DNA of 21,554 nt from a virus, in the IMG/VR virus record IMGVR_UViG_3300025133_000692, positions 1 through 21,554 of that record. One strand, written 5' to 3'. Of this stretch, positions 2 to 21,228 are shown in pieces. The notes beneath the pieces were generated by a model. The model did not search any database and was not told where the DNA came from. It was given only the letters and a program-made list of their open reading frames with translations. The stretch's first letter is position 1; every line of letters starts with the position of its first letter. The position numbers were made by a program, and so were the translations under genes.

Positions 2-775
2 AGGAATTTAATTTTATTGGCTATGCTTATAACCATAGCTATGATTGCCAAACCAGTCATAGCTGACTCAGCCAATGACGAAAATACGCAGACGAACACT
101 TCGGGAAGTAACACGAATATTACAGGTGGGTACGAATCAACTACTACTAACAATAACGATGGACAAACGAACACAACGACAAATACCACTACATCTACTA
201 CCAATGGGTCAGACATACCCGTTAACTCGGCTAACAGCCCATCATTTTCTTCCATGTCTCAAGATGTGTGTAGCATGGGTGTTAGTGGTTCCCTTTCTAC
301 TCTTGGGGTTGGCATATCTGGGGGCAAACACGTTAGGGACTTAAATTGTGAGAGAATAAAACTTTCAAAGGTACTGTATGACTACGGTATGAAAGTTGCG
401 GCTGTGTCAATTTTGTGTCAAGACCCTCGTGTTCATGCGGCAATGCAATCTGCGGGAACTCCATGTCCTTGGAATGGTAAGATAGGCTCAGATGCTCAAG
501 CTATGTGGGATAAATACCCCGAACTTCGGCCCGATTATGAGGATTATTTAGTAAAAGCAGAAGCTATAGCTAAAATAGATGAGAAGATAGCTAAAGAAAA
601 AGCTAGAATAGAAGCAGAAAAAATAGCAGAGCAAGAAAGAATTGCTGAAGAAAAGAGAATACAACAAGAAGAAGAAGCTGAAAAAGAAAAAGAAAGACTT
701 AAAAAGATAGAGGAGAATAAGAAAAATGAAAAAGCTAATAGTAATAATAATCCTCCTGTTTCCGTTCACGAGTAA
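2..775 (+). CDS. Exported Cys-containing phage protein with C-terminal coiled coil (5' end cut by window)
   Basis: Function is unknown. The reading frame is open to the left edge. The in-frame TTG at 17 and ATG at 23 fall inside a hydrophobic stretch (RNLILLAMLITIAMIA) ending in a VIADS-like signal-peptidase site, so the true start is probably only a few codons before the window. Counting from the TTG, residues 18-66 are a Thr/Asn/Ser-rich linker. Residues 80-180 form a compact core with four cysteines (85, 111, 134, 150) around the segments LNCERIKLSK, LCQDPRVHAAM and GTPCPW. I recall this core from marine-phage hypothetical proteins. Residues 185-240 are a highly charged Glu/Lys coiled coil. 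The cysteines could form disulfides if the protein reaches the periplasm. The next gene starts inside its last 50 bases. It is surely a gene; its role is not known. Confidence 0.85.
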   Translation, partial: RNLILLAMLITIAMIAKPVIADSANDENTQTNTSGSNTNITGGYESTTTNNNDGQTNTTTNTTTSTTNGSDIPVNSANSPSFSSMSQDVCSMGVSGSLSTLGVGISGGKHVRDLNCERIKLSKVLYDYGMKVAAVSILCQDPRVHAAMQSAGTPCPWNGKIGSDAQAMWDKYPELRPDYEDYLVKAEAIAKIDEKIAKEKARIEAEKIAEQERIAEEKRIQQEEEAEKEKERLKKIEENKKNEKANSNNNPPVSVHE

Positions 776-1085
776 TGGCGAAGAATTTTCTAAACCAGAG
801 AAAATTGGAGAATTATCTTTTCAATTAGTTAACTTTCTTGACATGATGCAAACAATTGAAATTGTTCAGCATGATGATTTATATTACGAAACAAATCCTA
901 TATTAGGTAAACACCCTCAACAGCATGAGGTAATTACATACTTTATGTTAAGAGGATATGCTCACTATCGTATTACAGAGTGGTTGCCAGAAAAATTTAG
1001 AATGCCGTGGTTAACTATATCAGTATTACCACAAATACCTATTTTAGAGCATAATCATAATTTGGGAATTAGAATAGGATGGTAA
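726..1085 (+). CDS. Small exported protein with ETNPILGKHP motif, unknown function
   Basis: A 119-residue protein with a clear signal peptide or N-terminal anchor (MKKLIVIIILLFPFTSNG). The body contains a DMMQT segment, then YETNPILGKHP around residues 53-63, followed by hydrophobic stretches near residues 68-80 and 92-110. Similar short proteins with an ETNP-LG-HP core occur in phages and bacteria without an assigned function (from memory, not searched). The ATG at 726 is favoured because it creates the signal sequence and is preceded by AGGAG at 711-715. The gene therefore begins 50 bases inside the upstream coding region. Its own stop overlaps the start of the next gene (ATGGTAA). Confidence 0.85.
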   Translation: MKKLIVIIILLFPFTSNGEEFSKPEKIGELSFQLVNFLDMMQTIEIVQHDDLYYETNPILGKHPQQHEVITYFMLRGYAHYRITEWLPEKFRMPWLTISVLPQIPILEHNHNLGIRIGW

Positions 1086-2872
1086 AATATCTATTAGCAT
1101 TACTATTATTAAGTTTTACTATAAATGCTGAAACAATAGATACAGGAAACATATTATCTAATTCCACATTTGGCTCTAGTACAACCTATGATACAACTGG
1201 TTGGACTATATCGAGTGGAACAAGCGGTCACGACAATATGAACACAGCCGGTGGTAATGACCCCGGTGGTTCAGTTGCTGCGGAAGGTAATACAACTATA
1301 GAGCAAACTGTTAAGTTGTCTGAAAAGACTAACATGACAGAAGCTGAAATACAGAATGGTTGGTCGAGTACACTAGGTGCAGATATTTGGTATTGGAATC
1401 AATATGATAATACTACTACACTTAAACAAACTATTACTGGTTCTGATGGTTCTGTCTCTACTCAACAAAGAATTATACAAGATACAGGATGCGGAGGTAT
1501 CAACTGTGGGTCTTATACCAATTACACAGACACGCATATACAGGGGTCGAACACACAAACCGATTTTGATATAGAAGTATCAGTAGAAAATACTAATAAT
1601 AGAAGTGGTCATTGGGGGCCAGATATAGATGATATTACATTAGGTATAAATTACACATATATCAACCCACTCGATGAAGATACACAAGATGTTATTGATG
1701 ACATTGATGAAACTATTGATGATGCTATTGATGATATAGATTTTGAAGAGGATTATACCTTTGATGATTCATGGTATGAAGAAGAGTATACTTGGTATGA
1801 AGAAGATTACTCTTGGGAAGATGATTTTTATTTTGAAGAGGAATACGATACCTCTTTTGAAGAGGGAACTTCGTTTGAAGAATTTGAAATGGAGGAGTTT
1901 GACGAAATAGCCTTTGAAGAATTCGAGATGGAAGAATTTGAAATGGAGGATTTTGAAACTTTTGAAGAAATGCCTGTGATGGAAGAGGTATTTTTTGAGG
2001 AGGATTTCACTGAAACTCCAATGATGGAGGAAATATTTGAAGAAGAATTTGAGGAAGAATTTGCTGATTTTCTGGAAGAAACTGGCATGGAAGAAGAATT
2101 CATGGAGTTTCTTGAGGAGGAAGGTATAACAGCAGAGGAGTTCTTTGAAGAAGTCATAGAAGAAAGTTTTGAGGAAGAGTCTGACTTTGTAGAACCTACA
2201 GAGGAGGCTTTAGATGAAGAAATTACTGACGATAATATGGAAGAGCCTACAGAAGTCGTGGCAGAGGAGTCAGAGACTGAAGAAAGCTCATTCGAGGTTG
2301 CTTCAAATGAAGAAGAAACAATGGAGGAGTCCCCAAGTAATGACGGGGAATTAGAAGAAGACGATGGACAAGTATCAGAAGAATCTAATGAGGAAAGCGA
2401 ACCCAATAGCGAAACTTCTGATGAGTCCGACATTTCATCAACAGATGAAGATGAGCAAGAAGACGTACAACCGAAAGAAGATGGAGAAGTTGAAGGAGGA
2501 AATCTTAAAGGAAAAGTAGACATAGCAAAATTTGAGAAAAAACTAAAGAAAGACATAAAGAAATTAGTTCAACAAGTTAAGGCTAGCACTCAAAACTTAT
2601 CTAAGGAAGATATATTCTTTAAAAGTAACAATAACTTAAACGCCTATCTCAAAACTGATTTTTATAAACCAAAGGATATCTATACAGACCAGAATTTTGA
2701 TTTATTTAATCAGATAGATTTAGGCGTTTATGACAGAGATATTTACACAACTGTAACTCTTGCCAGTTATGTAAATAATGACCCTGTTGAAAAACATAAT
2801 AGAGAATTACAAGAAATAAAAATAAAGAAACAACAACTATTGATTGAATTGGAGGCACTGAGAAAGAAATGA
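1079..2872 (+). CDS. Exported protein with N-terminal beta domain and hyperacidic low-complexity middle
   Basis: A 597-residue protein of unknown function. Residues 1-17 are a signal peptide ending TINA-ET. Residues 20-197 look like a beta-sandwich or lectin-like domain: rich in Thr, Asn, Gly and aromatics, with the segment CGGINCGSYTNYTD and two close cysteines. I recall this domain from other marine-phage proteins. Residues 199-475 are dominated by Glu and Asp with regularly spaced Phe, Trp, Tyr and Met (EEFEMEEFE-like runs). Residues 485-597 are lysine-rich, with short Tyr/Asp motifs and a final coiled coil. The gene overlaps both neighbours by a few bases, so it is part of the same transcript. 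Possible roles are adhesion, calcium binding or charge masking in the envelope; none is shown. The Ser-rich reverse-strand reading frame here is a shadow of the acidic codons. Confidence 0.88.
   Translation: MVKYLLALLLLSFTINAETIDTGNILSNSTFGSSTTYDTTGWTISSGTSGHDNMNTAGGNDPGGSVAAEGNTTIEQTVKLSEKTNMTEAEIQNGWSSTLGADIWYWNQYDNTTTLKQTITGSDGSVSTQQRIIQDTGCGGINCGSYTNYTDTHIQGSNTQTDFDIEVSVENTNNRSGHWGPDIDDITLGINYTYINPLDEDTQDVIDDIDETIDDAIDDIDFEEDYTFDDSWYEEEYTWYEEDYSWEDDFYFEEEYDTSFEEGTSFEEFEMEEFDEIAFEEFEMEEFEMEDFETFEEMPVMEEVFFEEDFTETPMMEEIFEEEFEEEFADFLEETGMEEEFMEFLEEEGITAEEFFEEVIEESFEEESDFVEPTEEALDEEITDDNMEEPTEVVAEESETEESSFEVASNEEETMEESPSNDGELEEDDGQVSEESNEESEPNSETSDESDISSTDEDEQEDVQPKEDGEVEGGNLKGKVDIAKFEKKLKKDIKKLVQQVKASTQNLSKEDIFFKSNNNLNAYLKTDFYKPKDIYTDQNFDLFNQIDLGVYDRDIYTTVTLASYVNNDPVEKHNRELQEIKIKKQQLLIELEALRKK
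1673..2503 (+). repeat. Low-complexity GAA/GAG-rich coding repeat
   Basis: The region coding for the acidic middle of the exported protein is made of irregular repeats of GAA, GAG, TTT and ATG codons, densest at about 1850-2190. The repeats are imperfect at DNA level, with mixed GAA/GAG use, so the pattern is not a recent exact tandem expansion. Confidence 0.7.
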
Positions 2873-3345
2873 AAGTCATTGATAAATTATCTACATACGC
2901 ATCTCTCGTTGGAGTGGTCTGTGCAATCGGAGGAGGATTCTATGCTTGGGGGGAGTTTAACACTCGTCTTGACGTTTTAGAAAAAAAGAAGTTTGTTGTT
3001 AACGAAACTGTTAACCTTGACCCTGTTAATGAAAAAATATCTCAATTAGAAGTTGATTTAATTGATAGAATAAAAAAAGTTGATGATAAAATTACTCCTG
3101 TCGATTTAACACAAGTATTTAAAGAAATAGGTAAAGTTAAAGAACAAATAGCTATGTTACCTAAACCTGCTAATTTAAAACCTGTTCTTGACTCTATTAA
3201 AGAATTAGAAGAATACGCTTGGGAATTAGAAGAAGATATTGAAGAATTAAGCAAAGATGTTGCTATTGTTAAAAAAGAAAATGAATTACAGAATATATTA
3301 ATTGAAGAAGTAAAAAAATCTACAAGTAATCCACTTGGTGGCTAA
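2869..3345 (+). CDS. Membrane-anchored coiled-coil protein
   Basis: A 158-residue protein with one N-terminal membrane segment (about residues 10-27, ASLVGVVCAIGGGFYAW) followed by a long Lys/Glu-rich coiled coil from about residue 40 to 150. Topology by inspection is membrane anchor plus rod. It starts with an ATGA overlap with the acidic-protein gene and shares a TAATG junction with the next gene, so translation is probably coupled. The next product has the same plan (membrane helix, then RL..[LI]E heptads), so the two may be diverged tandem copies. A spanin-like or envelope-anchored structural role is possible, but no specific family is recognised. Confidence 0.85.
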   Translation: MKVIDKLSTYASLVGVVCAIGGGFYAWGEFNTRLDVLEKKKFVVNETVNLDPVNEKISQLEVDLIDRIKKVDDKITPVDLTQVFKEIGKVKEQIAMLPKPANLKPVLDSIKELEEYAWELEEDIEELSKDVAIVKKENELQNILIEEVKKSTSNPLGG

Positions 3346-3737
3346 TGAAAGTATCAGATAATACTTCTATTAGTATGCCTATGAGAAATCTTCTCAGCAT
3401 ACTTGCAGCGGTTGCAGTTGGGGTCTGGGCTTATTTTGGGGTTATTGAACGCTTGAATAACATCGAAACTCAAGGTAAGTTAATGTTATCAGATGTTGAG
3501 AAAAATACAGAATTCCGGATTAAGTGGCCCAGAGGTGAGATGGGCAGTTTGCCCGCAGATAGTCAGCAGGATATGCTTATAGAATTTATGGCCTCTCAAT
3601 TAGAGTCTATGGCTGAAGAGATGGAGGGTATGATGAGTAATACCGTAAATATAAAGAGAGCTCAGCAAGATATAGAAAAATTAATTTTGGATACGGAAAA
3701 GCTCGAGGACAAGGTGAGGCAAAATGGAGGTAATTAG
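3345..3737 (+). CDS. Membrane-anchored coiled-coil protein, possible tandem relative of the preceding gene
   Basis: A 130-residue protein. Residues 14-31 (NLLSILAAVAVGVWAYFG) form a single membrane helix. The rest is mostly helical and charged, with a Met-rich patch around residues 75-92 and a C-terminal coiled coil. The start is fixed by the TAATG junction with the previous stop. Compared with its upstream neighbour it shares the MKV.D start, the Ala/Gly/Val membrane helix ending in an aromatic-rich edge, and an RL...E motif just after it. No enzymatic motif is visible and the function is unknown. Confidence 0.85.
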   Translation: MKVSDNTSISMPMRNLLSILAAVAVGVWAYFGVIERLNNIETQGKLMLSDVEKNTEFRIKWPRGEMGSLPADSQQDMLIEFMASQLESMAEEMEGMMSNTVNIKRAQQDIEKLILDTEKLEDKVRQNGGN

Positions 3738-4038
3738 TATAATCGTCATGTTCATATTTGGAAATATGAATGATACAGAAGATAGAATGACACAGTATGT
3801 GCCAATGGAATCATTGTCATCGTGTATGAAAGAAGTGAGACTATTGAAAAAAGATAAGAAATTTCAGAAGGATGCTTTTTGTTCTCCGTCATTAGTGGAA
3901 TTGAAGGATGGAGTAGTTGTTACTCTTCATAGTGAATTACCCGAAGGAGCAATTATGGTAGATAAAAAAGTATCAAAGAAAGCATTAAAAGATTGGACTT
4001 TAAGAGCAAAAGAAAAATGGAATAAGGATAAAAAGTGA
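3724..4038 (+). CDS. Small two-cysteine protein with hydrophobic N-terminus
   Basis: A 104-residue protein that overlaps the preceding gene by 14 bases. GGTGAGG at 3713-3719 serves as ribosome-binding site. Residues 3-13 are hydrophobic (VISIIVMFIFG), which could be a weak signal or anchor sequence. Cys34 and Cys53 lie in an SSC...C arrangement, and the C-terminus is lysine-rich. The next gene has a similar plan (signal-like start, then two cysteines), so the pair may act together or be distant relatives. The function is not recognised. Confidence 0.8.
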   Translation: MEVISIIVMFIFGNMNDTEDRMTQYVPMESLSSCMKEVRLLKKDKKFQKDAFCSPSLVELKDGVVVTLHSELPEGAIMVDKKVSKKALKDWTLRAKEKWNKDKK

Positions 4039-4304
4039 TTAAGATATGGTTTATGTTAATGTTAGTATCTATGCCTAACGCACCTTCAGTTAAATATAAT
4101 GGATTTATATATTCTAGTGAAGAAGAGTGCCAAGTAGCAAGATATGAATTAATGGAATCATACAATGAAAAATCTACAGAATATAAATCAGTAACAGCAA
4201 TAGATTCATATTGTGTAGAATTTGAAAGTTTTCCAATACAAGGATTAAAACCTAAACAAGAATTAAAAAATCCAACACAAGGATTGAACAATACAGGAGT
4301 ATAA
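4035..4304 (+). CDS. Small exported two-cysteine protein (GTG start)
   Basis: An 89-residue protein starting at GTG 4035, which overlaps the upstream TGA stop (GTGA). AAGGA at 4024-4028 gives a six-base spacer and supports this start. The N-terminus (MIKIWFMLMLVSMPNA) is a short signal peptide. The mature part contains YSSEEECQVAR and a second cysteine (Cys32, Cys60) that could form a disulfide, and ends in a polar tail with two QGL..KQEL / QGLNN-like segments. The function is unknown. It closes the left-hand block of exported or membrane proteins and is followed directly by the tail fibre gene. Confidence 0.8.
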   Translation: MIKIWFMLMLVSMPNAPSVKYNGFIYSSEEECQVARYELMESYNEKSTEYKSVTAIDSYCVEFESFPIQGLKPKQELKNPTQGLNNTGV

Positions 4305-4307
4305 AAA

Positions 4308-5366
4308 ATGGCATCAACGTACACGACAAGATTACGTCTTGAAAAACAAGGTACAGGTGAAAATGCAAACACTTGGGGAGATAAGACTAATGATACCTTT
4401 GACCTCATTGATGAGTCTATCTATGGATACGCTGCAAAGAGTGTCGCAGGTAGTTCTGATGTAACCTTAACAAACAGTAACGCCACGTCAGACGAATCAC
4501 GTCAAAGTGTATTAGAATTTACTGGTACATTAACTGGAAACATTAATGTTTTACTACCAACAACAGAATCAAAATATATTGTTTATAATAACACAGCAGG
4601 AAGTTATACTTTAACTGTAGCGACTACAGGAAATACAGGAACTGGAACGGCTGTTGTTCAAAGCTCTCACGCTTTAATGTATAGTAATGGAACTTTTGTC
4701 AAAGATGTTTTTGCAAGTGGTATTAATAATTTAGTTTGTAAAGGAACTCTATCAGTTGCAGGTGCTGTTGAATTAGATGGTGGCAACGTAACAATTAATG
4801 AAAGTTCTGCTAGTGTAGACTTTAGGGTTGAATCAAATGGAAGTACCCATGCTTTATTTGTTGATGGTTCTGAAGACAAGGTTGGAATACTTAATAGTAG
4901 TCCTTCCGTAGCTTTGGATGTTACAGGAGCAGTCACTGCATCTGGAACTATTACAGGAAATTTATTTTCTGGAAGTGGTGAAGATATAAAAGATACAGTT
5001 CCTACTGGCGGAGTTATTATGGCGGGATTTTCTACCGAACCCACAAAATCAGATGACTCAACAAAACGATATTTATTATGTAATGGACAAGCAGTAAGTC
5101 GCTCAACTTACTCAGCATTATTCTCAGCTATTAGCACAACATATGGAACGGGGGATGGCTCAAGCACATTCAACGTCCCAGACATGATGGGTCGTGTTCC
5201 AGTTGGAACAGGAGCAGGCTCTGGATTAACATCAAGAAGCATTGGAGCAACGGGTGGAACGGAAAATACAGCCGCAGGAAGTAATTTATCCTCTGGCTCA
5301 AATTACAGTTACGCCATTATGCAACCATTTTCAGTCGTTTCATTCTTCATTGCTACAGGGAAATAA
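4308..5366 (+). CDS. Tail fibre protein with phage tail collar domain
   Basis: A 352-residue fibre or collar protein likely to sit on the virion tail and contact the host surface. The N-terminal 45 residues (TTRLRLEKQGTGENANTWGD, then a NDTFDLID segment) match a particle-binding region I know from many marine-phage fibres. Residues 60-130 and 150-225 are beta-rich repeats (VDGSEDKVGI, VTGAVTASGTITG) of the kind seen in trimeric fibre shafts. Residues 230-300 form a tail collar domain, with PTGGVIMAGF, LLCNGQAVSRSTYSALF and STFNVPDMMGRVPVG. The C-terminus ends in a short hydrophobic strand. The start has a good AGGAG at 4295-4299, eight bases before ATG. The receptor-binding portion is short. 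Confidence 0.9.
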   Translation: MASTYTTRLRLEKQGTGENANTWGDKTNDTFDLIDESIYGYAAKSVAGSSDVTLTNSNATSDESRQSVLEFTGTLTGNINVLLPTTESKYIVYNNTAGSYTLTVATTGNTGTGTAVVQSSHALMYSNGTFVKDVFASGINNLVCKGTLSVAGAVELDGGNVTINESSASVDFRVESNGSTHALFVDGSEDKVGILNSSPSVALDVTGAVTASGTITGNLFSGSGEDIKDTVPTGGVIMAGFSTEPTKSDDSTKRYLLCNGQAVSRSTYSALFSAISTTYGTGDGSSTFNVPDMMGRVPVGTGAGSGLTSRSIGATGGTENTAAGSNLSSGSNYSYAIMQPFSVVSFFIATGK

Positions 5367-5369
5367 TGA

Positions 5370-7205
5370 ATGCCAATAACAAAAATACAATTCCAACCGG
5401 GGTTTGATAAACAAAACACTGAGATAACATCTAAAGGTAAGTGGATTGATGGTGATAAAACTAGATTTCGATATGGCTTTCCAGAAAAGATGGGAGGTTG
5501 GAAGAAGGTTTCCGATACCACATTTACTGGAGTTGCTAGAGGGCAAATGTCTTGGAACTCACTTGATGGTACAGCTTATAATGCTCTTGGAACTAATAAT
5601 AAATTATATATTTATAACGAAGGTAATTTCTTTGATGCTACACCCGATAGGTCAACCGCTGATATAACAAGTTGCTTTACTACATCGAGTGGTTCATCAA
5701 TTTTTACGGTAACGCATTCATCACACGGTGCTGCCGAAGGTGATTACGTTACTATTACAAGCACCAGTGCCACCATTGGTGGCGTTGCTGCTTCTACAGT
5801 TAATGGAGAATACGAAATAGCGTCTGTGCCAACAACATCTACTTACACAGTGGATATTGGAACGAATGCTAGCTCGTCTGTTTCTACAACTGGAAATTGT
5901 ACTGTTACTTATGAAGTTACAGCAGGAAGAGACAAGGCTTTAGTTGGATATGGATGGGGAACTGGAGCATGGGATTCATCAAATACTTGGGATACCCCAA
6001 CATCGTCTTCCACAGTAACCATTGCTCTTAGAAACTGGGCGATAGATACTTGGGGTGAGGACTTGATTGCCCAAGACATTGACGGTGGAATTTACGTTTG
6101 GGATACATCTGATGGTATATTAACTGCAAGCAATATAGCAACAGCTATAAGTAACGCACCAACAAAATCAAAGTTTGCTATTGTTTCTAATCCAGATAGA
6201 CATTTAATTTGTATGGGGACAGAGACAACAATTGGAACAACATCTACCCAAGACCCAATGTTTATCCGTTGGTCTGACCAAGATGATTATACATCTTGGA
6301 CGGCATCAGCTACTAATACAGCGGGTTCACAAAGAATTACTGATGGAAGCCAAATACGAACTGCTGTTCGTACAAGAGGTCAGATAATTATTTTAACTGA
6401 TACCTCTGCACATGGTATGGCTTTTATTGGTGCACCATTTACTTTTGGTTTCCAACAGCTAGGTTCTAACTGCGGAGCTATTAGTGCTCACTCCGCTGTT
6501 GATGTTGGTGGTATTGTTCGATGGATGAGCAATGATGCTTTCTATCAATTTGATGGAACAGTTAGAAAATTACCGTGTACAGTTGAGGATTTTGTATTTG
6601 ATAACATTGAGCCAAAACAATTAGAGCAGGTGTATGCAGGTTCTAATTCTGCTTACGGTGAGGTTTGGTGGTTGTATTGCACAACAGCATCAAACCAAAT
6701 TGATAAATATGTTGTTTTTAATTATCAAGAGAACTTATGGTATACAGGTTCAATAGTGAGAAGCACTTGGATTGATACTGGAACTTATTCTTTGCCATAT
6801 GCTACGAAGTATGATGGAAGTAGTTCATCAACTCTTTACAGTCATGAAAACGGTAAGGATGATGATGGCTCTACGATGACATCTTATATTGAGAGTGGAG
6901 ATTTTGACATAGGTGATGGTGATGACATGATGTTTATAAAACGCATGATACCAGATTTTAAAGACCAAGTGGGTAATGTTAACATAAGTTTAAAATCACG
7001 ATATTATCCTAGTGACACGCAAACAACTAAGGGGCCTTTCTATTACACAACATCAACGCAACGACTCAACCCTAGAAGTAGAGGAAGACAAGTTGCTGTT
7101 CGTGTAGAGAGTAATGGATACGATGGAAGTAATAATGACGCTACGGGAGAGGATTGGCGTTTAGGTACAATACGATTTGAAGTGCAACCAGATGGTAAGA
7201 GATAA
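5370..7205 (+). CDS. Large tail hub/nozzle-type structural protein, possibly P22 gp10-like
   Basis: A 611-residue beta-rich structural protein. The N-terminus (QFQPGFDKQNTEITSKGKWI, then RYGFPEKMGGWKK and ARGQMSW) resembles the opening of P22 gp10-type tail stabilisation proteins, where a short PG motif is followed by a G[VW].RG segment. Residues 100-190 look like a small inserted beta domain (HSSHGAAEGDYVTITS, VNGEYEIASV). The remaining two thirds contain propeller-like blades: GGIYVWD, MFIRWSDQDDYTSWT, IIILTD, VRWMSNDAFYQFDG and NYQENLWYTG. It follows the fibre gene with a three-base gap and has AGGG at 5357-5360. Its place between fibre and internal proteins fits a tail tube or nozzle subunit. 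The gp10 assignment rests on weak pattern resemblance only. Confidence 0.8.
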   Translation: MPITKIQFQPGFDKQNTEITSKGKWIDGDKTRFRYGFPEKMGGWKKVSDTTFTGVARGQMSWNSLDGTAYNALGTNNKLYIYNEGNFFDATPDRSTADITSCFTTSSGSSIFTVTHSSHGAAEGDYVTITSTSATIGGVAASTVNGEYEIASVPTTSTYTVDIGTNASSSVSTTGNCTVTYEVTAGRDKALVGYGWGTGAWDSSNTWDTPTSSSTVTIALRNWAIDTWGEDLIAQDIDGGIYVWDTSDGILTASNIATAISNAPTKSKFAIVSNPDRHLICMGTETTIGTTSTQDPMFIRWSDQDDYTSWTASATNTAGSQRITDGSQIRTAVRTRGQIIILTDTSAHGMAFIGAPFTFGFQQLGSNCGAISAHSAVDVGGIVRWMSNDAFYQFDGTVRKLPCTVEDFVFDNIEPKQLEQVYAGSNSAYGEVWWLYCTTASNQIDKYVVFNYQENLWYTGSIVRSTWIDTGTYSLPYATKYDGSSSSTLYSHENGKDDDGSTMTSYIESGDFDIGDGDDMMFIKRMIPDFKDQVGNVNISLKSRYYPSDTQTTKGPFYYTTSTQRLNPRSRGRQVAVRVESNGYDGSNNDATGEDWRLGTIRFEVQPDGKR

Positions 7206-11562: not shown

Positions 11563-14500
11563 ATGACACTTCTCGAAGAGATACGGGATTTAAATCCCTC
11601 TCTAGCATTAATTCCAGATGATGAGCTAATTGAAAATTTATTAGAGCAGTATCAAGGTGATTTAGACCCAGAGGTTTTCATGCGTTCTCTCACAGAAGAG
11701 AGACCAGTTGAATCTCCAGTTGTATCGCCTACAGAAATGCCTACAGCAGGCAAGAGACCATTCGGTGTGGGTGCAGACCCAGATGATATTGGATACGGTG
11801 AGGCTTTCGTTGGTGGAGTAAAATCCATGTGGGAGAGAACATGGGGGCCAAACATTACCTACCTTCGTGGTGGTATTGCGGGACTCATGGGTGATGAAGA
11901 GAGAGCGGCACAACTATACGAACAGGCGAGAGAACAAGACCAAGCTATATTAAGCAAGACAGGATACCTTTCATTTGAACAGGCAACCAAAGGCCCCGAT
12001 GCAGGCGTAGATACGTTTGTTAAGTGGGGATTACAGCAAGCAGGAATGTCTCTGCCATACACCCTTATGGGTGGCGTTGGTGGTATTGCAGGAAGAGTGG
12101 CACTGAAGGGTGCAATGGGAGCAGGTAAAGCAACATTCACTGGTTGGACATCTGCAATTGTCCCACAGTCAGCGTCATTCCTTTTAGCTAGACAGCATGA
12201 GCAAGTAGAGGCAGGAAATCTCGATGAGGTTAACGAGGGTGCGGCATTCGCATGGGCGTTACCATCCGCCATGCTAGAGGGTGCTCTATATCCAGTATTA
12301 GGAAAGTTATTTGGGCCAATTAGTCCAACGAATGCAATGAGAGCACTAGAGAGAGGTGTACTAGGTAGAGTTGCCAAGGGTAGTGCGATGGGGTCAGCCG
12401 TTGAAGCCTTAACAGAGGTTGGTCAACAGGCTATAGAGAGATATCAAGCGGGATTAGAACTTGATTCCGAGGATGCACTAAGAGAATACAAGGAAGCGGC
12501 GGCAGGAGCGGCTTTCGTTGGTGGATTATTTGGTGGTGTAACAACCACGGCAGGTGAGGCAGTAAGGGCAGTTCAACCAACTCCAAAGGTTGAAGAGGGA
12601 ATACAAAAAGAAGAAATCGCCAAACCAGAGGAAGTTGTCCAACCAGAAGACCAGAAGACAGCGGCACTAGACCAAGCTAAAGTTGAACAAGAGAAACCAC
12701 TTAACTTTGCTGTAGAGAAGCAAGGCGATAAGTTTGTTGTTAACAGACAAGAGTTAGATGAAGCGGGTAATATTGTAAGTAAATCACCCGTTGGCAGTGT
12801 CTTTAATACCGAAGAAGAAGCCAAAGCAAAGCAAGTAGAAATACAAGACCAAAAAAGTAAATTACCAGAGCAAACATTTTTTACTAAAGATGAAATCGTT
12901 AAGGAAAATCCCGCTCTAGGTAATATAATAAATGATTTAGAAGAGCAAGGGAACAAAATTGCTCCACACGTTAAACAAGTTTATTTTCAGAAAAATTTAG
13001 CCTTAGCGAAAGGCAATGCAGAGAATGTTGTAGCATCTGGGGGAACGGCAGGTTCCGTTGCCGATGGATGGTATGACAGGACATCCGACTACGCACACAT
13101 ATCACTCGTTGACCCATCAAAGGCGATGGAGACAACAGCCCACGAAAACTTTCACGCATTACAGAGAACATTAGATAGAGGATATCAAAGCGGTTTATTC
13201 AAGGAAGATGAACAAGCGGCATTAAATTCCTATTTCCCAGACAAACAAACTATAGAGAATATTCCACAGAGTGTTCAAAAGGGACTGGGCGAGGATGTCA
13301 TGGCTCGGTTACGGGAGAGACACGCCGACAGACCACTAGATAGTAGAGAGATGCAAGCCTACGCTTTTGGTGCCTACAGTGCATTAAAGGCACAAGGAAA
13401 GAGAATGGCGGCACCAAACCCCGTTATTCGTGCCTTCAAGAGATTATGGGATTTCATTAAGAGTGCGGGCAACGTATTCAAGAAGAATGAAGTTAACAGC
13501 GTTCAAGACTTGTTCGAGAAAGCTAGAACTGGTGAGATTGGAAAGAGACCTCTAGATGTCAAGGCAAGACCAAGAGAGGAAGTTGAAAAACTCAGACCGA
13601 AAGCATTAGTGGCGGCAGAGAAAGCGGCGGCTAAGGGTGTTGTTCCAAGCGAATTGGAATACAGTATTCTCGAAGATTTAGACAGGCAGTACGGCAAACA
13701 AATTTACAATATGGCTAGGCGTGTTGACAAGGAGGGAAAGCCATACACCAAACAAAAACTTATTGAGGTTCACGAGGCGAGACTTCCAAAAATTACGGAT
13801 GTAGAAAAGAAAAAAGAGAGAGATAAAAGAGTAAGAGCTATTGCCGATTTAGCATTTCTTGAAAAAGATTTAGAGGAATCTGGAGAGTATATAAAACTTT
13901 ATGATGAAGTAAGAGGAAGAGGAAAAACAATAGGAGTACCAGAGGAAGCAGGCGGTATAGAATACAAGATAGAAAATAAGGCAGAGAAAGCAATTTACGA
14001 TAAATACTTTAGAGAAGCAGCACCAGAGGATGTGGCACTAGAGTTTGCCGTAAGCACTCCTTTAAGGGAGAAACCACCAAAGATAGATTTTAAAACAGAT
14101 AAAAAAGTTAGAGAAATTGCTAAGTGGTTAGATAAAAAATCTAAGCGTGTTAAAGATTTTTCAAAAGAGCCTGTCTTGGATAAGATAGCTGATGATGCTA
14201 GTGAAGAAATTATCTGGAATATCAACAGAGTCAAAGGCACTGAAGAAACAGACGGCATTGGTTGGTACGATGCAGATATTACGAAGGCATTTGAAACTAC
14301 AGAAAAGGCAATACCAGAGTTAAAAGATGATATTGACACAAAAGTTTTACTAACAGCTTTAGCTGCTGTTACATCTTATGAAAAAAAAGCTGTAGAGAAT
14401 TGGCAAGTAGCTACACAAATTTTAAGAGACTACATAGATAATGGTAAGACCAGAATAATGACAACAAACCCAGACATTTGGGTTACCGAAACAATAAATA

Positions 14501-17500
14501 AAGAAGGAAAGAAAGTACCGATAGAGCCTCGTTTTGCAGGTTGGACTACAAGACCTGCTACATCACAGCAATTAAACTTAATTAAAGGTCTTATAGATTA
14601 CTTTAACGGTGATTTATCTAAGTTCAGTAATTTTTTAACTAGTGAAATAAATGTTAAAAAAATGCTAGAAATTAAAGGTAAGATTACAGGACAGGATTTA
14701 CCTAATCCTAATCAATCTAATATGGTTAAAATGAAAGGCAAGGATGTTGTCTTTGATTCTAAAACAAAATTATATAAATCATTACAACCACCTGCCGGTT
14801 ACGGTATGAGTGATGAAGTTTATGGTGCTTTTATGTTTGGGCCAAAAGCAGGGCCTTTCTTTGCAAACCTAAATTCACTATCTGGAGTAACAATAGATAT
14901 TTGGGCTTCTAGAAGTTTTAATAGACACATAGGTGCATTAACATATGGACTTCCTCCTTCATTAAAAAGTGGAGTTGCAAGTGCACCACGCTCAACAGCG
15001 AATAAAGGTTTACCAATTGAATGGACGGCTAAACAAGAGAGGATTGGAGTACAGAAATTTTTTGATAGAATAACTGAAAAAGTAAACGAAAAAACAGGAG
15101 AAAACTATACAACAAGGGATATGCAAGCCGCTATGTGGTTTTATGAGCAGGGCTTATTCACCGATTTAGGGGCTAGAAGCATACCGGGACTCTTTTCAGA
15201 AGGAGCAAATCGTGCTATAAAGGATAAAACATATGAAACAAGAAACACAGAATATACTCTCCCAGATGAAGCAGTTGAGGGAGAACTTGCAGTTGGCGAG
15301 AGAGGGGCAAAAGTTGCGAGGGACAAAGCCTTGGTGGAAAAACCAGACCTCTCAGTCAGCGAAAGAAAAGAAACAGAAGAAGTAGCTGTATCCGAAAACC
15401 TAGAAGACGTCATAGCACCAGAGTTATCTGTTAGAAAACCTAAACTAGAAGGTGACTTTAGTTTTGATTTTGTTGATAAGGATAATTTTAATGCAAATGA
15501 CCCCCAATTTGAAGATTTTACATCATTAAAAGATTTTTATGATAAAGTTATTGGGCCTGTAGATACACTTGAAGGAGAGTTTGAAACACAAGGAATTGGT
15601 AGTCAACTTAAAACTGATGACTATGGCGATGGAACTGGAAGGTTCTACGCAAACATAATTAAGGATGGCGATAAAGTTGGATTTATACATGGAGAAAATA
15701 CAGACCAAGATATAGCATACGTTCACTACGCTAGAGTGTTCGGATTTGTATCTTTACCAAATCAAGTTTGGAAAAATTTAGCAAAAGAATTTAAAAGAAA
15801 ATTTGGAATAAAAAGATTTGCCGGATATAGAATTACTGGTGCAAGAAAATTATCAGAAAAAAAACAAAGAGAAGTTGAGGAAAAATTATTAGGTGGTGCT
15901 ACATATGTTAGCCCTATTGCAATTAGCCCAGAGTTTTCTGTATCAAATGTAGAATCATTTTACAAAGACCCTGTAAATTATTCTGAATATTCTTTAAGTA
16001 ACAACACTCCACAAACTGATGATTTTTTTACTGAAGCGAAAGTATCTAGTGAAACAGATAATAGGGTGGGAAAAGTACCTTTCCCAAATGTAAGTGAGTT
16101 ATTATTTGAAAATAGAAAACTTAAAGAAGGAACGCCAGTTGCAGTTAGGTTGAATTTAAATACAACAATATTTTATGATGAAAATACAAGTAAAATTAAA
16201 GAACTAAAAAATAAGTTTGCAAACATAAAAAATGAAGAGGGTTTTAAATCATCAAAAGAAAAAGAAAAATATAGAAACAAAAGAAAAAAAGAAATAGCAA
16301 TAGAAACTGGGGTATCAGTTGCCACTTTACAAACTGCACACGATAAAGATACAGATGGAAATGCCCTAGGTTACGATAAGGCTATAACAGTTAAAGACCC
16401 TACTTTTGATGTTAATCAAAAAAAGAGATTTCAAGTTATTGCAAAAGGAGAAAAAACTCCTATGGCATCCGTTAAGGGTGGCATTGTACAGAAAAAAATT
16501 GATGAACCAATAGAAGGAAAAAGAATATTTTTTAATCCATTTAAACATCACTTGTTTATTGATGAGGCAGGGAATGCTGTTAAATCTGTTAAAGGTGAGG
16601 TTACTGTTTTTAATAGTGCCGCATATACAAATGGTGAAATAGAATATTATTCAAGAGAGCAAGGCGAAACTCTTGAGGTAGAAACTGAAAATAATAAATC
16701 TAATGTATCCTACAAGTTTGAAACTGAAAAAGAAAAGTCAGACTTTGAATTACCAGAAATGGATACACTCTCGCAAGAGAAGTTAGTTAAATACGGTCTG
16801 GAGTTTTCCGCATCAAAAGAGGAAGAGAATTTTTCTGATTTAACGAAAAACTTTCGCAGTCATATTAACCCAGAGAAAGTCAGAAGAACCATTCCCGGTC
16901 ATTGGAAGGCACTCACTGACAACTGGCGTGCAAGGTGGCATCAAGCAGGCGTAGACCAGTATTCATCCGTAAGGAGTATTGGCCTTGATGAGCCATACAA
17001 ATTACTAACAATGACACACGCATCATCGGGTGCGATAGAGGGTGCATTGAACTACGGCGTTCCATTCTTGGATAACGATGGAGCCATTGACTTAAAGGAA
17101 AACACTCTGGGAACGGGTCTGTTTACACGATTTGAAAAGTTGGGACAGAATTTACCAATTTTTCTGGAGTGGGTTGCAGCAAATAGAGCGAAGTATTTAG
17201 TAAGCGTAGGAAAAGAAACTGGCTTAGGAACTATAGAGGAAATAAATTCTGCCATTAAGGATTTCTCAAAAGGAAGAGAAAAATTATTTAATCAAGCAAT
17301 AAAAGACTTAAATGAATTCAGAGATGCATTCCTTCAGATAGGATTAAAGTCTGGGTATCTCAGTCAGAAAGCACACGATTCTTGGACTAGAGATGAGGGA
17401 TATGCTTTCTATCTGCCATTCTACAGGTTACTGGAGGATGAGACAAGCACTAGTGGCCCAATGTCTGCCGATGGTATTATTGACCAACCAGAGGTAAAGA

Positions 17501-19383
17501 AATACAGGGGCTCACACCTTCCCGTGAAGGATTTATTCTCCAATATGCTACAGAATTTTAACTTCTTGGCTGAGGCATCACTCAAGAACCAAGCGGGTTT
17601 GAAAACCCTAGAGCAGGGCGAGAAGATAGGCGTAACAAGAAAAGTTGACAAAGAAACCAAAGATTCTGTTTTTGTCAGAAAGAACGGAAGGAAGGTTCAC
17701 TACGAGGTTGATGAGCCTCTAGTTTTACAGGCGTTGCAGGCACTCAACTGGAGTGGTTGGAGTAATCCCGCAATGTCAACTCTAAGAAACTTCAAGAGAT
17801 GGCTCACCATTGGCGTTACAGCAAGTCCCGCATTTAGAATTAGAAACCTTATTCGTGATTCAATTCACTCCATTGCCGTTAGTAAGATAAGCTACAATCC
17901 ACTTGGCAATGTTATGCAGGGCGGAAAAGGTTTTAGTTTTAAAGGCAGGAAAATGTCAGAGCTAAGGGCGAAGATGGCTTTCGGTGGTGGACAGATTCAC
18001 TTCGGTCATATCTACGGCGGAGACCCTAACGCCACTAAGATGCTTCTTGACAGAAACATAGACCTCAACACCGTGATGGAATCGGATGGTTGGGGCAAGG
18101 GTTCTTTAAGACTCTTTAAATCAAAATTCGGAAAGGGTTTGAACTGGTGGCAGGAGATTGGTAACACGGCGGAGAATGTCAACCGTGCCGCCTTATATCA
18201 GCAATTAAGGGATAAAGGCGTTAGCCACTTTGAGGCGAGTTACCAAGCTAGGGATTTATTAAACTTTAGCAGACATGGTGCCCATCCCTTCGTTAGATTT
18301 CTTACCCAGTCAGTTCCATTCCTCAATGCCCGTATTCAAGGCTTGGATAAAATGGGAAGGGCATGGAACAAGGAACAGCGAGCACAGTTGTTAACTACTT
18401 TGGGAGTTTACTCTCTTGCATCAATTGGACTTTACTTAATGTTCAAAGATGACGAGGACTTTAAAGATAGGGAGCAGTGGGACAGGGATACATACCACTG
18501 GTTTAAGTTTCCCGGCACAGAGACAGCATACAGAATTCCACGACCATTTGAGGTTGGTGCAGTTGGCGTAATGTTCGAGAGAATGGTTGAGCAAATTGCC
18601 GATGACGATGTACACGGAATGCTATTTGCTGAAAGAATGGCTCACATTATCGGCGAAACATTCGCCTTTGACTTTAGACCACAGCTAATTACACCTTACC
18701 TTGAGGTATACTCAAACAAGGATACATTCACGGACAGACCAGTTGAACCCCTGTGGATGGGGGCACTCCCTCCAAGCGAGAGGAAATACGCCTACACAAG
18801 CAGTGCGTATGTAAACACAAGCAATATGCTACAGTTCATTCCTTGGAAGGCTATCCAGTTTTCCCCAGTACAAGTTGAGCATTTGGTTGAGGGATACTTC
18901 GGTTGGGTTGGCTCTAGTGTTGCACAGGTTGCATCATTCACGGATTACCCAAGAAAGTTAACCCAATTTACCAGTGCCGAGAGTCCATTGTTCATGGGTT
19001 TTGTTAAGCCTCTGCCATCAATTCAGACAAGATATAAGTCTGAATTTTATGAGGCAATGACTGAAATGAATGAGACTCAGAAACTGATGAATTTGTATAT
19101 GAAGAATGGCGATACGGATAAAGCCATGAAATTATACACCAAGAATAGGGATTTATTAAACTGGAGGGGTACTTACGTTAAGGTTAACTCCCAAATAATA
19201 AAAATAAACCAACAAATAAAATTCATTGAAGCGATGAAAGGTATCTCCGAAAGAGAGAGATATGATAAAGTTAAACAACTTAATTTACTGAAGGCTGAGA
19301 TTGTCAGAACTTTAAAAGAGAATGTTATTGCATATGAGAAAGCTAACAATACTAAGGTAAAAAGACAATCTTGGTGGCATTAG
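11563..19383 (+). CDS. Giant 2606-residue polyvalent internal/ejection protein
   Basis: A single open frame covers 36% of the window. AGGAG at 11553-11557 lies five bases before ATG. I read seven modules. (a) Residues 1-378: a helical start, then Gly/Ala-rich hydrophobic segments near 151-190, 226-252 and 312-330, likely membrane-penetrating. (b) Residues 385-435: a small beta unit (GDKFVVNRQELDEAGNIVSK). (c) Residues 440-745: a zincin-like peptidase, with HENFH at 527-531 and E596 in SREMQAYAF as possible third ligand. (d) Residues 832-1260: resembles HhH-GPD DNA glycosylases, with GPK at 1093-1095 and TIDIWASRSFNR at 1110-1121. (e) Residues 1292-1455: an unknown domain ending YRITGAR. (f) Residues 1462-1745: an LPD-type domain (FNPFKHHLFIDEAGN). 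(g) Residues 1752-2606: a large C-terminal region with RARW, PAFRIRNLIRD at 2089-2099, one membrane segment near 2279-2296 and a coiled-coil tail, resembling LPD38-type polyvalent-associated domains. A motif like PEFSVS recurs at the joints. It is inferred to be packaged and injected with the DNA, comparable in role to the large ejection proteins of podoviruses. Module names are from memory of motifs, not from a search. Confidence 0.9.
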   Translation: MTLLEEIRDLNPSLALIPDDELIENLLEQYQGDLDPEVFMRSLTEERPVESPVVSPTEMPTAGKRPFGVGADPDDIGYGEAFVGGVKSMWERTWGPNITYLRGGIAGLMGDEERAAQLYEQAREQDQAILSKTGYLSFEQATKGPDAGVDTFVKWGLQQAGMSLPYTLMGGVGGIAGRVALKGAMGAGKATFTGWTSAIVPQSASFLLARQHEQVEAGNLDEVNEGAAFAWALPSAMLEGALYPVLGKLFGPISPTNAMRALERGVLGRVAKGSAMGSAVEALTEVGQQAIERYQAGLELDSEDALREYKEAAAGAAFVGGLFGGVTTTAGEAVRAVQPTPKVEEGIQKEEIAKPEEVVQPEDQKTAALDQAKVEQEKPLNFAVEKQGDKFVVNRQELDEAGNIVSKSPVGSVFNTEEEAKAKQVEIQDQKSKLPEQTFFTKDEIVKENPALGNIINDLEEQGNKIAPHVKQVYFQKNLALAKGNAENVVASGGTAGSVADGWYDRTSDYAHISLVDPSKAMETTAHENFHALQRTLDRGYQSGLFKEDEQAALNSYFPDKQTIENIPQSVQKGLGEDVMARLRERHADRPLDSREMQAYAFGAYSALKAQGKRMAAPNPVIRAFKRLWDFIKSAGNVFKKNEVNSVQDLFEKARTGEIGKRPLDVKARPREEVEKLRPKALVAAEKAAAKGVVPSELEYSILEDLDRQYGKQIYNMARRVDKEGKPYTKQKLIEVHEARLPKITDVEKKKERDKRVRAIADLAFLEKDLEESGEYIKLYDEVRGRGKTIGVPEEAGGIEYKIENKAEKAIYDKYFREAAPEDVALEFAVSTPLREKPPKIDFKTDKKVREIAKWLDKKSKRVKDFSKEPVLDKIADDASEEIIWNINRVKGTEETDGIGWYDADITKAFETTEKAIPELKDDIDTKVLLTALAAVTSYEKKAVENWQVATQILRDYIDNGKTRIMTTNPDIWVTETINKEGKKVPIEPRFAGWTTRPATSQQLNLIKGLIDYFNGDLSKFSNFLTSEINVKKMLEIKGKITGQDLPNPNQSNMVKMKGKDVVFDSKTKLYKSLQPPAGYGMSDEVYGAFMFGPKAGPFFANLNSLSGVTIDIWASRSFNRHIGALTYGLPPSLKSGVASAPRSTANKGLPIEWTAKQERIGVQKFFDRITEKVNEKTGENYTTRDMQAAMWFYEQGLFTDLGARSIPGLFSEGANRAIKDKTYETRNTEYTLPDEAVEGELAVGERGAKVARDKALVEKPDLSVSERKETEEVAVSENLEDVIAPELSVRKPKLEGDFSFDFVDKDNFNANDPQFEDFTSLKDFYDKVIGPVDTLEGEFETQGIGSQLKTDDYGDGTGRFYANIIKDGDKVGFIHGENTDQDIAYVHYARVFGFVSLPNQVWKNLAKEFKRKFGIKRFAGYRITGARKLSEKKQREVEEKLLGGATYVSPIAISPEFSVSNVESFYKDPVNYSEYSLSNNTPQTDDFFTEAKVSSETDNRVGKVPFPNVSELLFENRKLKEGTPVAVRLNLNTTIFYDENTSKIKELKNKFANIKNEEGFKSSKEKEKYRNKRKKEIAIETGVSVATLQTAHDKDTDGNALGYDKAITVKDPTFDVNQKKRFQVIAKGEKTPMASVKGGIVQKKIDEPIEGKRIFFNPFKHHLFIDEAGNAVKSVKGEVTVFNSAAYTNGEIEYYSREQGETLEVETENNKSNVSYKFETEKEKSDFELPEMDTLSQEKLVKYGLEFSASKEEENFSDLTKNFRSHINPEKVRRTIPGHWKALTDNWRARWHQAGVDQYSSVRSIGLDEPYKLLTMTHASSGAIEGALNYGVPFLDNDGAIDLKENTLGTGLFTRFEKLGQNLPIFLEWVAANRAKYLVSVGKETGLGTIEEINSAIKDFSKGREKLFNQAIKDLNEFRDAFLQIGLKSGYLSQKAHDSWTRDEGYAFYLPFYRLLEDETSTSGPMSADGIIDQPEVKKYRGSHLPVKDLFSNMLQNFNFLAEASLKNQAGLKTLEQGEKIGVTRKVDKETKDSVFVRKNGRKVHYEVDEPLVLQALQALNWSGWSNPAMSTLRNFKRWLTIGVTASPAFRIRNLIRDSIHSIAVSKISYNPLGNVMQGGKGFSFKGRKMSELRAKMAFGGGQIHFGHIYGGDPNATKMLLDRNIDLNTVMESDGWGKGSLRLFKSKFGKGLNWWQEIGNTAENVNRAALYQQLRDKGVSHFEASYQARDLLNFSRHGAHPFVRFLTQSVPFLNARIQGLDKMGRAWNKEQRAQLLTTLGVYSLASIGLYLMFKDDEDFKDREQWDRDTYHWFKFPGTETAYRIPRPFEVGAVGVMFERMVEQIADDDVHGMLFAERMAHIIGETFAFDFRPQLITPYLEVYSNKDTFTDRPVEPLWMGALPPSERKYAYTSSAYVNTSNMLQFIPWKAIQFSPVQVEHLVEGYFGWVGSSVAQVASFTDYPRKLTQFTSAESPLFMGFVKPLPSIQTRYKSEFYEAMTEMNETQKLMNLYMKNGDTDKAMKLYTKNRDLLNWRGTYVKVNSQIIKINQQIKFIEAMKGISERERYDKVKQLNLLKAEIVRTLKENVIAYEKANNTKVKRQSWWH

Positions 19384-19393
19384 GGGGCGACAT

Positions 19394-19642
19394 ATGGTAG
19401 AAATGAGTGATGAGAAGGTACGAGATATTGTGGTAAAAACAGTTGACGAAACCCTTCAAAAAATGGGATTAAACCCCAGTGAAATATATGAGGCTCAAAA
19501 AGATTTTATGTATCTGAGGGAACAGAGGAAATTGCACGATAAAATTAGCTTTCGAGTTAGGTTCGTTATAGTTGGTTTTATTGTAACAGGTGCCTTAACC
19601 CTTCTTATTTTAGGAGTGAAAACAGCACTAGGAATAAAGTAG
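19394..19642 (+). CDS. Small single-TM membrane protein, holin-like candidate
   Basis: An 82-residue protein with a charged, helical N-terminal half (residues 5-50, including EAQKDFMYLREQRKLHDK) and one membrane segment at about residues 55-78 (RFVIVGFIVTGALTLLILGV). GGGGG at 19383-19387, six bases before ATG 19394, serves as ribosome-binding site; an alternative ATG lies at 19403. Small one-helix proteins of this shape sit between virion and lysis genes in many phages and can act as holin accessory proteins. That role is inferred from shape and context only. Confidence 0.8.
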   Translation: MVEMSDEKVRDIVVKTVDETLQKMGLNPSEIYEAQKDFMYLREQRKLHDKISFRVRFVIVGFIVTGALTLLILGVKTALGIK

Positions 19643-20832: not shown

Positions 20833-21228
20833 ATGTTAAATTTATTACTTAAACCCTTGCTCGGCGTTGCCGGGCAAGCGGTATCTGGATTTATAGAAAC
20901 GAAGAAAGCTAAAGCTGAAAATAAATTAGTTGAAATAAAAGCTAAAACTAAATTGAAAGAACAGCAAATAGCAGGCGAGGTTTCGTGGGAAGCATCAGCC
21001 GTAGACCAAATGAAGGGGTCGTGGAAAGATGAGCTAATTTTAATTTGCTTACTGACACCTGCCGTGCTCGTTTTCGTGCCGGGAATGACACCACACATAG
21101 AGGCGGGGTTTCTCGCACTCCATAATTTGCCGGATTATTATAAACATTTATTATATTTAGCCTGCTCAGTTTCATTTGGCGTGAAAATGGGGCCTGCGGC
21201 TATGGGATTATTTAAAAAGAAAAAATGA
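20833..21228 (+). CDS. Holin of the 3-TM type
   Basis: A 131-residue protein resembling the phage Holin_3TMs family, which forms holes in the inner membrane to end infection. An amphipathic N-terminus (LLLKPLLGVAGQAVSGF) and a Lys/Glu-rich linker (residues 22-50) precede WKDE at 64-67. The first clear membrane segment follows at about 68-84 (LILICLLTPAVLVFVPG). Next come the family signature GFLALHNLPDYYKHLL and the last segment CSVSFGVKMG (about 104-120), ending in KKKK. WKDE plus a GF..L..LP.YY...L.....SFG pattern is diagnostic in my experience. It lies three bases after the 39-residue membrane protein and overlaps the next gene by ATGA. A strong hairpin lies in codons 8-16. Confidence 0.88.
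   Translation: MLNLLLKPLLGVAGQAVSGFIETKKAKAENKLVEIKAKTKLKEQQIAGEVSWEASAVDQMKGSWKDELILICLLTPAVLVFVPGMTPHIEAGFLALHNLPDYYKHLLYLACSVSFGVKMGPAAMGLFKKKK
20856..20878 (+). other. GC-rich hairpin inside the holin start region
   Basis: CTTGCTCGGC (20856-20865) can pair with GCCGGGCAAG (20869-20878) across a three-base loop. This gives ten pairs, nine Watson-Crick and one G-U. It is strikingly GC-rich for this genome and begins 23 bases after the holin ATG. No T-run follows, so it is not a standard terminator. A translational brake or RNase III-type site is possible. Confidence 0.6.

Follow-up and report, generated by a model that had tools for sequence, protein, structure and literature searches.

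The left end of a 21.5-kb linear IMG/VR virus record (IMGVR_UViG_3300025133_000692; 21,554 nucleotides, the whole stretch being called the window here), a fragment of an HTVC023P-like pelagiphage, harbors three genes, g1, g3 and g4. This trio is a widely conserved phage module, undescribed in the literature searched, with a diagnostic tail on the g4 protein, which ends in the residues NPL. It would be spanin-like in effect, yet by membership it is neither a spanin nor a curli system. The preferred reading, with a probability of roughly 0.45, is that the three proteins form an envelope complex that contributes to opening the cell at lysis, the outer membrane being the likeliest site.

The g1-g3-g4 trio and its signatures

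All three genes lie on the + strand. The product of g1 (2..775; start outside the window; phrog_20531, function unknown) is a predicted exported protein, as is that of g3 (1079..2872), in which a jelly roll (residues 19-193) is followed by an acidic stretch (230-480) and a conserved C-terminus. The g4 protein (2869..3345) consists of a glycine-rich N-terminal hydrophobic helix, a coiled coil and the C-terminal NPL. Relatives of g4 are encoded in 164 IMG/VR stretches, of which 80 were kept; gene order was examined in the 36 SAR11-type loci that remain once the 44 with less than 3 kb of sequence ahead of g4 are set aside, and in 79 of 80 roseophage-type loci. The order g1-g3-g4 is kept in 36/36 SAR11-type and 79/79 roseophage-type loci, counts in which the loci share ancestry and some flanks are cut. 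In 27 of 36 loci the end of g3 shares 4 bases with the start of g4. Eleven phage records contain g1, including CRP-810 and MW202675, and a g1 scan of genome contigs, metagenome-assembled or single-cell by title, gave 20 loci. The Roseobacter phages CRP-207 and CRP-810 and the freshwater phage MW202675 combine g1 with a usually exported second gene and a membrane-coil gene, as do loci such as L103, L104, L106, L108, L110, L111, L113, L116 and L118. MW202481 has g1 and the second gene, but g4 was not recognised in that record.

The NPL tail forms the C-terminal end of all 36 aligned g4 proteins and of all 15 remote ones checked. Its columns are the sole invariant ones in an alignment of 17 members with a mean identity of 24%. 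Across six genomes, five of 367 open reading frames (ORFs) end in NPL and all five are g4, compared with 0/362 other ORFs. Roseophage-type g4 proteins end in NPL in 78/79 cases and in KPL in one, and g4 of MW202675 ends in NPM. Two annotated lysozymes turn out to be of this kind. CRP-207 gp73 (L123:3292-3873), a putative lysozyme in its record, shows no lysozyme in Pfam, is an NPL-ending g4 and was excluded from the endolysin adjacency; CRP-810 gp51 (L214:5375-5797) likewise has no lysozyme domain that could be found and is a g4-type membrane-coil protein ending in NPL. At L116:8601-9044 and L123:3870-4226, g4 is adjoined by a small membrane protein bearing an acidic loop of the DxDGDG type, and a homologue of the L123 protein occurs in 9/79 roseophage-type loci.

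The trio is part of a series of seven overlapping or abutting + strand ORFs, g1 to g7, across 2-4304, which the first-pass annotation had described as an unusual run of export signals. N-termini were classified by a home-made signal-peptide rule (positive n-region, hydrophobic core, small residues at -3/-1), which sorted four exported and two cytoplasmic Escherichia coli N-termini correctly and also passes anchors. The four genes credited with signal peptides, starting at 2, 726, 1079 and 4035 (g1, g2, g3 and g7), are all signal-peptide-like by this rule. The two genes credited with a membrane helix and a coiled coil, at 2869 and 3345 (g4 and g5), pass as well but resemble N-terminal anchors ahead of the coil; because the rule also passes anchors, their result denotes a hydrophobic N-terminus only. 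The gene at 3724 (g6), previously called borderline, rates as weak because it has no positive n-region. Rather than being negative for most, the predictions thus give all seven genes a signal-like or anchor segment, compared with an N-terminal hydrophobic call of any kind in 2/14 other window genes (Fisher p = 3e-4), so that the run is beyond chance. The anticipated cysteine pairs and quartets are present too, with four cysteines in g1 and two each in g3, g6 and g7; g4 has one, and g2 and g5 have none.

The rule is met across the families by 25/34 g1, 34/42 g3, 36/36 g4, 3/3 g2, 15/15 g5 and 7/14 g7 proteins, and by 0/11 g6 proteins, all weak. Five genomes served as reference: G001 (61.8 kb, a close relative of the window), HTVC033P (50 of 53 kb), HTVC202P, HTVC023P (50 of 61 kb) and Baldr. 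Of their 361 ORFs, 18 are signal-peptide-like, and 12 of the 18 are g1, g3 or g4 homologues (p = 9e-16); the homologues number 15 in all, including Baldr g4 and two others that fail or are missed by the rule. The only signal-peptide-like ORFs among the 79 of HTVC033P are g1, g3 and g4.

The AlphaFold2 model of g3 contains a confident beta-sandwich at about 19-193 and little else that is confident; the predicted local distance difference test score (pLDDT) is mostly 70-97 over residues 21-200, with a dip to 48 at 51-60. Residues 19-193 match sugar-binding jelly rolls (Foldseek, VIA-align) with Z 13-16, the best being Fbs1 (Z 16.4, root-mean-square deviation 2.7 over 164 residues), CBM61 (Z 14.1) and CBM16 (Z 13.2). 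The Fbs1-type domain, CBM61 and CBM16 thus have a fold in common with g3 but differ from it in sequence, at 10-18% identity. Judged by the modelled fold, the N-domain is a carbohydrate-binding-type jelly roll, although fold alone does not prove sugar binding; HTVC033P gp45 is already annotated as a putative carbohydrate binding domain. The linker, residues 230-480, is 46% Asp/Glu. Sequence comparison indicates that the N-domain is exchanged between phages: g3 of the window and of L043 are 28% identical in the N-domain, 89% in the linker and 96% in the C-terminus, whereas between the window and L046 identity is 86% for the N-domain and 72% for the C-terminus. Sharing of the N-domain with tail fibres was not seen among 3748 ORFs screened, most genomes being only partly covered; the three matches outside ORFs with the g3 C-terminal profile are all at second-gene (g3) positions.

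The g1 protein is made up of a signal peptide, a conserved QTN..SGSNT.I.GGY segment, a four-cysteine domain and a long charged C-terminal helix, and its cysteines 90, 116, 139 and 155 are all invariant in 34 sequences. The structure model (pLDDT 63) has no match in the PDB; a viral-model library gives six matches with E <= 0.001, all to proteins that are unnamed or uncharacterised, including one of S28-C10. A C-terminal hydrophobic stretch replaces the charged helix in g1 of L110, L111, L115, L118, L119 and L102.

Lysis-gene neighbourhood and the T7 spanin slot

Lysis genes were detected by phmmer with nine queries, and holins were named by likeness and place. Size, position and membrane helices are the grounds for terming the families holin_c16 and phrog_2524 holin-like; the Pfam cut-off for holins is passed by the Mosig protein alone. 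In 20/36 loci, or 12/26 when these are made non-redundant, the trio has a holin-like or endolysin gene on its own strand at a distance of at most 1 kb. For the background, single ORFs were counted, 42 of 364 in six genomes lying within 1.5 kb of a lysis gene, in contrast to a module of three genes. The chance of 12/26 is 1e-5 at the background rate, 0.002 at 20% and 0.015 at 25%. The lysis association looks real, and its strength depends on the background chosen.

L005 and L010 have the order XhlA-like gene, holin-like gene, g1, g3, g4, GH24 lysozyme; Mosig carries a PF11351 holin ahead of g1, HTVC023P an M15 peptidase directly 3' of g4, and HTVC033P an amidase and a phrog_2524 gene upstream of g1. 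In the contig of L116 an endolysin (phrog_181, E 8e-77) follows about 340 bases 3' of g4, and in MW202675 a GH19/peptidoglycan-binding protein follows at about 1 kb. Altogether, a lysis gene is found near g1 in six of the 11 named records (HTVC033P, HTVC023P, Mosig, S28-C10, MW202481 and MW202675), and none in the stretches read of HTVC202P, Baldr, HTVC115P, CRP-207 and CRP-810.

In phage T7 the order is tail fibre, holin, small terminase, Rz/Rz1, large terminase. In HTVC121P, S35-C6, Jormungand and HTVC109P it is tail fibre-like gene, small genes, holin-like gene, g5, g6-like gene, one or two small genes, large terminase, with an XhlA-like gene in 3/4 (phmmer), a recognised holin-like gene in 3/4 and a lysozyme at most two genes after the large terminase; the g6-like genes of these phages are named by length, place and look, without a profile match. 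In S28-C10 a small membrane gene and a holin_c16 relative come first, then g1-g3-g4, and two small genes separate the trio from the large terminase. In T7-like marine phages, the trio or g5-g6 therefore stands about where T7 keeps its spanins.

The remaining genes of the block and the window

The block consists of two sub-modules, A, g1-(g2)-g3-g4, and B, g5-g6-g7. The first-pass annotation had envisaged an envelope-located assembly of all seven products; an assembly is plausible, but the seven are not a single unit. Only g1-g3-g4 is conserved in relatives, g2 occurs in 3/36 SAR11-type loci, and g5-g6 is separable and occurs without the trio. The sporadic g2 (726..1085, +) encodes a small signal-peptide-like protein with no match among phage records. 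Of sub-module B, g5 (3345..3737, +; phrog_20984) has an N-terminal membrane helix and a coiled coil; g6 (3724..4038, +), which overlaps g5, encodes a small protein with a hydrophobic N-terminus of weak signal character and two cysteines; and g7 (4035..4304, +) encodes a small signal-peptide-like protein, also with two cysteines. The g5-g6 pair lies downstream of the trio in the window and upstream of it in L015, where the order is XhlA-like gene, 75-aa gene, holin-like gene, g5, g6, g1, g3, g4. Among the 45 phage records with g5 are some without the trio, for example HTVC010P and pelagiviruses. HTVC115P is the only phage on both this list and that of the 11 records with g1, and its g5-like gene is the third after g1, at the place of g4. 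Probably g5-g6 is a second device of the same general kind as the trio.

Next to the block come genes for a tail collar protein (4308-5366, PF07484) and then for a virion structural protein (5370-7205, phrog_3287). The window is assigned to an HTVC023P-like pelagiphage because this second protein resembles its counterparts in DSL-LC04 (47% identity) and in HTVC023P and HTVC027P (about 40%). G001 has the same layout except for another 86-aa gene at the place of g2. The sole lysis candidate seen in the window is a putative holin of the phrog_2524 family (20833..21228, +), 16.5 kb from the block and outside the module; no endolysin was recognised with the families scanned. The family phrog_2524, listed as of unknown function, is a probable holin family with membrane helices, and several pelagiphages have it next to endolysin genes; its members include, besides the window protein, L084:3833-4270, L087:4309-4677 and L089:11817-12209, and in G001 the holin candidate adjoins a SleB-type hydrolase. 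Ahead of the window's holin candidate, and adjoining a metallophosphoesterase gene, 19394-19642 encodes an 82-aa protein with one C-terminal membrane helix (phrog_6420) that is XhlA-like by look only. A 2606-aa protein is encoded at 11563-19383; its matches to phage families are confined to the last third (about 1771-2582) and are to phrog_18222 and phrog_9854, neither of which has a known function.

Proposed envelope opening and its rival explanations

Under the preferred reading the trio would be expressed late. The glycine-rich helix of g4 would fix this protein in the inner membrane, leaving its coiled coil in the periplasm and its NPL tail as docking end; g1, secreted and probably disulfide-bonded, would act as a bridge; and the secreted g3 would bind, through its swappable lectin-like domain, a glycan belonging to the outer membrane or the wall. 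After holin and endolysin have acted, the complex would pull on or disrupt the outer membrane, a spanin-like job done without a lipoprotein. Among the roles proposed by the first-pass annotation (superinfection exclusion, envelope modification or lysis), lysis has the most support, since the module's relatives adjoin holins and endolysins and occupy the T7 spanin slot.

Several observations weigh against this reading. Within the clade of the window, tail fibre-like and collar genes flank the module and no lysis gene is close by; G001 has its SleB-type hydrolase and its phrog_2524 gene more than 20 kb from the module. Sixteen of the 36 loci have no lysis gene within 1.5 kb, some of them with short flanks, and in HTVC202P and Baldr the trio precedes the terminase, distant from the lysis genes. 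The charge balance of g4 is more positive on the N-side in 22/36 proteins and less so in 4/36, so that a periplasmic tail is weakly supported. The contig of L116 (G052 C228) carries, besides the trio, Rz-like (phrog_739, E 3e-11) and Rz1-like (phrog_812, E 4e-9) lipoprotein genes that overlap at L132:1915-2764, and therefore the trio does not replace spanins there. To our knowledge, swapping of a recognition domain is not a trait of any known spanin.

The trio resembles two-component spanins (lambda Rz/Rz1, T7 gp18.5/gp18.7) in pairing a putative inner-membrane coiled-coil protein with exported partners, in its slot in T7-like marine phages and in its place beside holin or endolysin genes in many loci. 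Both g4 and g5 have an architecture like that of inner-membrane spanins (N-terminal helix plus coiled coil), the side of the coil being weakly supported. The trio differs in having three proteins and a lectin-like domain, in lacking a lipobox in the window and G001 (lipobox-like starts in 0/122 and 0/360 ORFs, respectively) and in coexisting with Rz/Rz1. The window g4 matches the Rz-like phrog_739 weakly and below significance (E 0.009); of the 36 g4 members, 3 match, the best at 5e-4. Plain membership of the two-component spanins is rejected on the missing lipobox, this weak match and the coexistence in the L116 contig; a unimolecular spanin is not indicated either, the window having no lipobox-like ORF. 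The preferred reading gains from the absence of any recognised spanin family among 34 membrane-type ORFs of four genomes and from that of lipobox-like ORFs in the window and G001. Baldr has a coil protein and a lipoprotein-like ORF of 54 aa that were considered as a candidate Rz/Rz1 pair and set aside, the coil protein having no hydrophobic helix by eye. Lipoprotein-like starts do occur at the module in two relatives, in the second gene of L115 and in a small gene before g1 in CRP-810; they would suit an outer-membrane anchor but also show that absence of a lipoprotein is not universal.

Among the alternatives, superinfection exclusion or receptor masking is unlikely. Here the secreted lectin g3, held by g1 and g4, would cover host glycans and either block rival phages or stop progeny from sticking to debris, which would agree with its sugar-binding fold and with an N-domain exchanged while the rest stays near-identical, as between the window and L043. 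The N-domain is however not shared with tail fibres in the ORFs screened, and we know of no accessory exclusion genes with such strict three-gene conservation in unrelated phages. A part in lysis timing or endolysin release, with g4 resembling the Mu releasin gp25 or a holin partner and g1 and g3 as periplasmic regulators, is quite improbable. The trio often abuts a holin or endolysin gene, and g4 of S28-C10 is annotated in its record as DUF2730, the family of Mu gp25 according to the available part of PMC9239132. Both g4 and gp25 are small proteins with an N-terminal helix and a coiled coil near an endolysin. DUF2730 is nevertheless rejected, as neither the window g4 (E up to 1) nor S28-C10 g4 (E up to 0.1) has a Pfam match to it; the same source describes gp25 as N-out, C-in, opposite to the weakly predicted topology of g4, and in the part available no lectin partner. 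The endolysins adjoining the trio are moreover of several types.

A surface adhesin or aggregation device, a curli-like analogue holding host cells together, has a very low probability. It would suit the lectin-like domain of g3, and curli genes of pelagiphages with a proposed role in sibling capture have been published (PMC7029224, PMC9599517, as far as their available text goes). Like the trio, the curli system (type VIII secretion) is, in the available text, a conserved multi-gene exported cassette common to pelagi-myo- and podoviruses. CsgG is however absent from all 30 records searched, most of them with the trio, whereas 4/14 control genomes are positive; curli membership is rejected on this result, and no outer-membrane export pore is recognised in the block. 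Least probable of all is that these are virion or tail-assembly proteins that merely look exported. Tail fibre-like genes do precede the trio in the window and in L112-L114, but export-type N-termini recur by rule (25/34 g1, 34/42 g3, 36/36 g4), and no structural-protein family matches g1 or g3, with only scattered weak coiled-coil matches for g4. A targeted literature search (HTVC010P virion mass spectrometry) found no virion proteome of a relevant phage.

The preferred reading, opening of the envelope at lysis, can be extended, more doubtfully, to a third outer-membrane-opening architecture in phages with marine Gram-negative hosts. Here three proteins, with no lipoprotein among them in pelagiphages, would span the envelope as one complex: an NPL-tailed inner-membrane coil would be coupled by a disulfide-rich secreted linker to a secreted lectin that grips a host glycan and whose domain is swapped to follow host surface variation. 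As far as their available text goes, the trio is not described in the papers on the curli genes that pelagiphages and methylophages carry (PMC9599517, PMC7029224, PMC9004378), an M15 peptidase is named for lysis in an HTVC010P-type phage (PMC10504331), and 91 of 677 phages of Gram-negative hosts surveyed have no identifiable spanin (PMC6139136). Within a partial coverage of the literature, no description of the trio was found in searches on pelagiphages, their lysis genes, HTVC023P and Mosig or on a coiled coil with NPL, nor was a route of SAR11 phages through the outer membrane at lysis described. The trio is an unexplained gene set common to unrelated SAR11 phages, roseophages and other marine and freshwater phages. 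Exported and marked by a diagnostic tail, it provides a concrete candidate, assayable in E. coli, for outer-membrane passage at SAR11 phage lysis, and may represent a novel means by which this membrane is gripped or broken.

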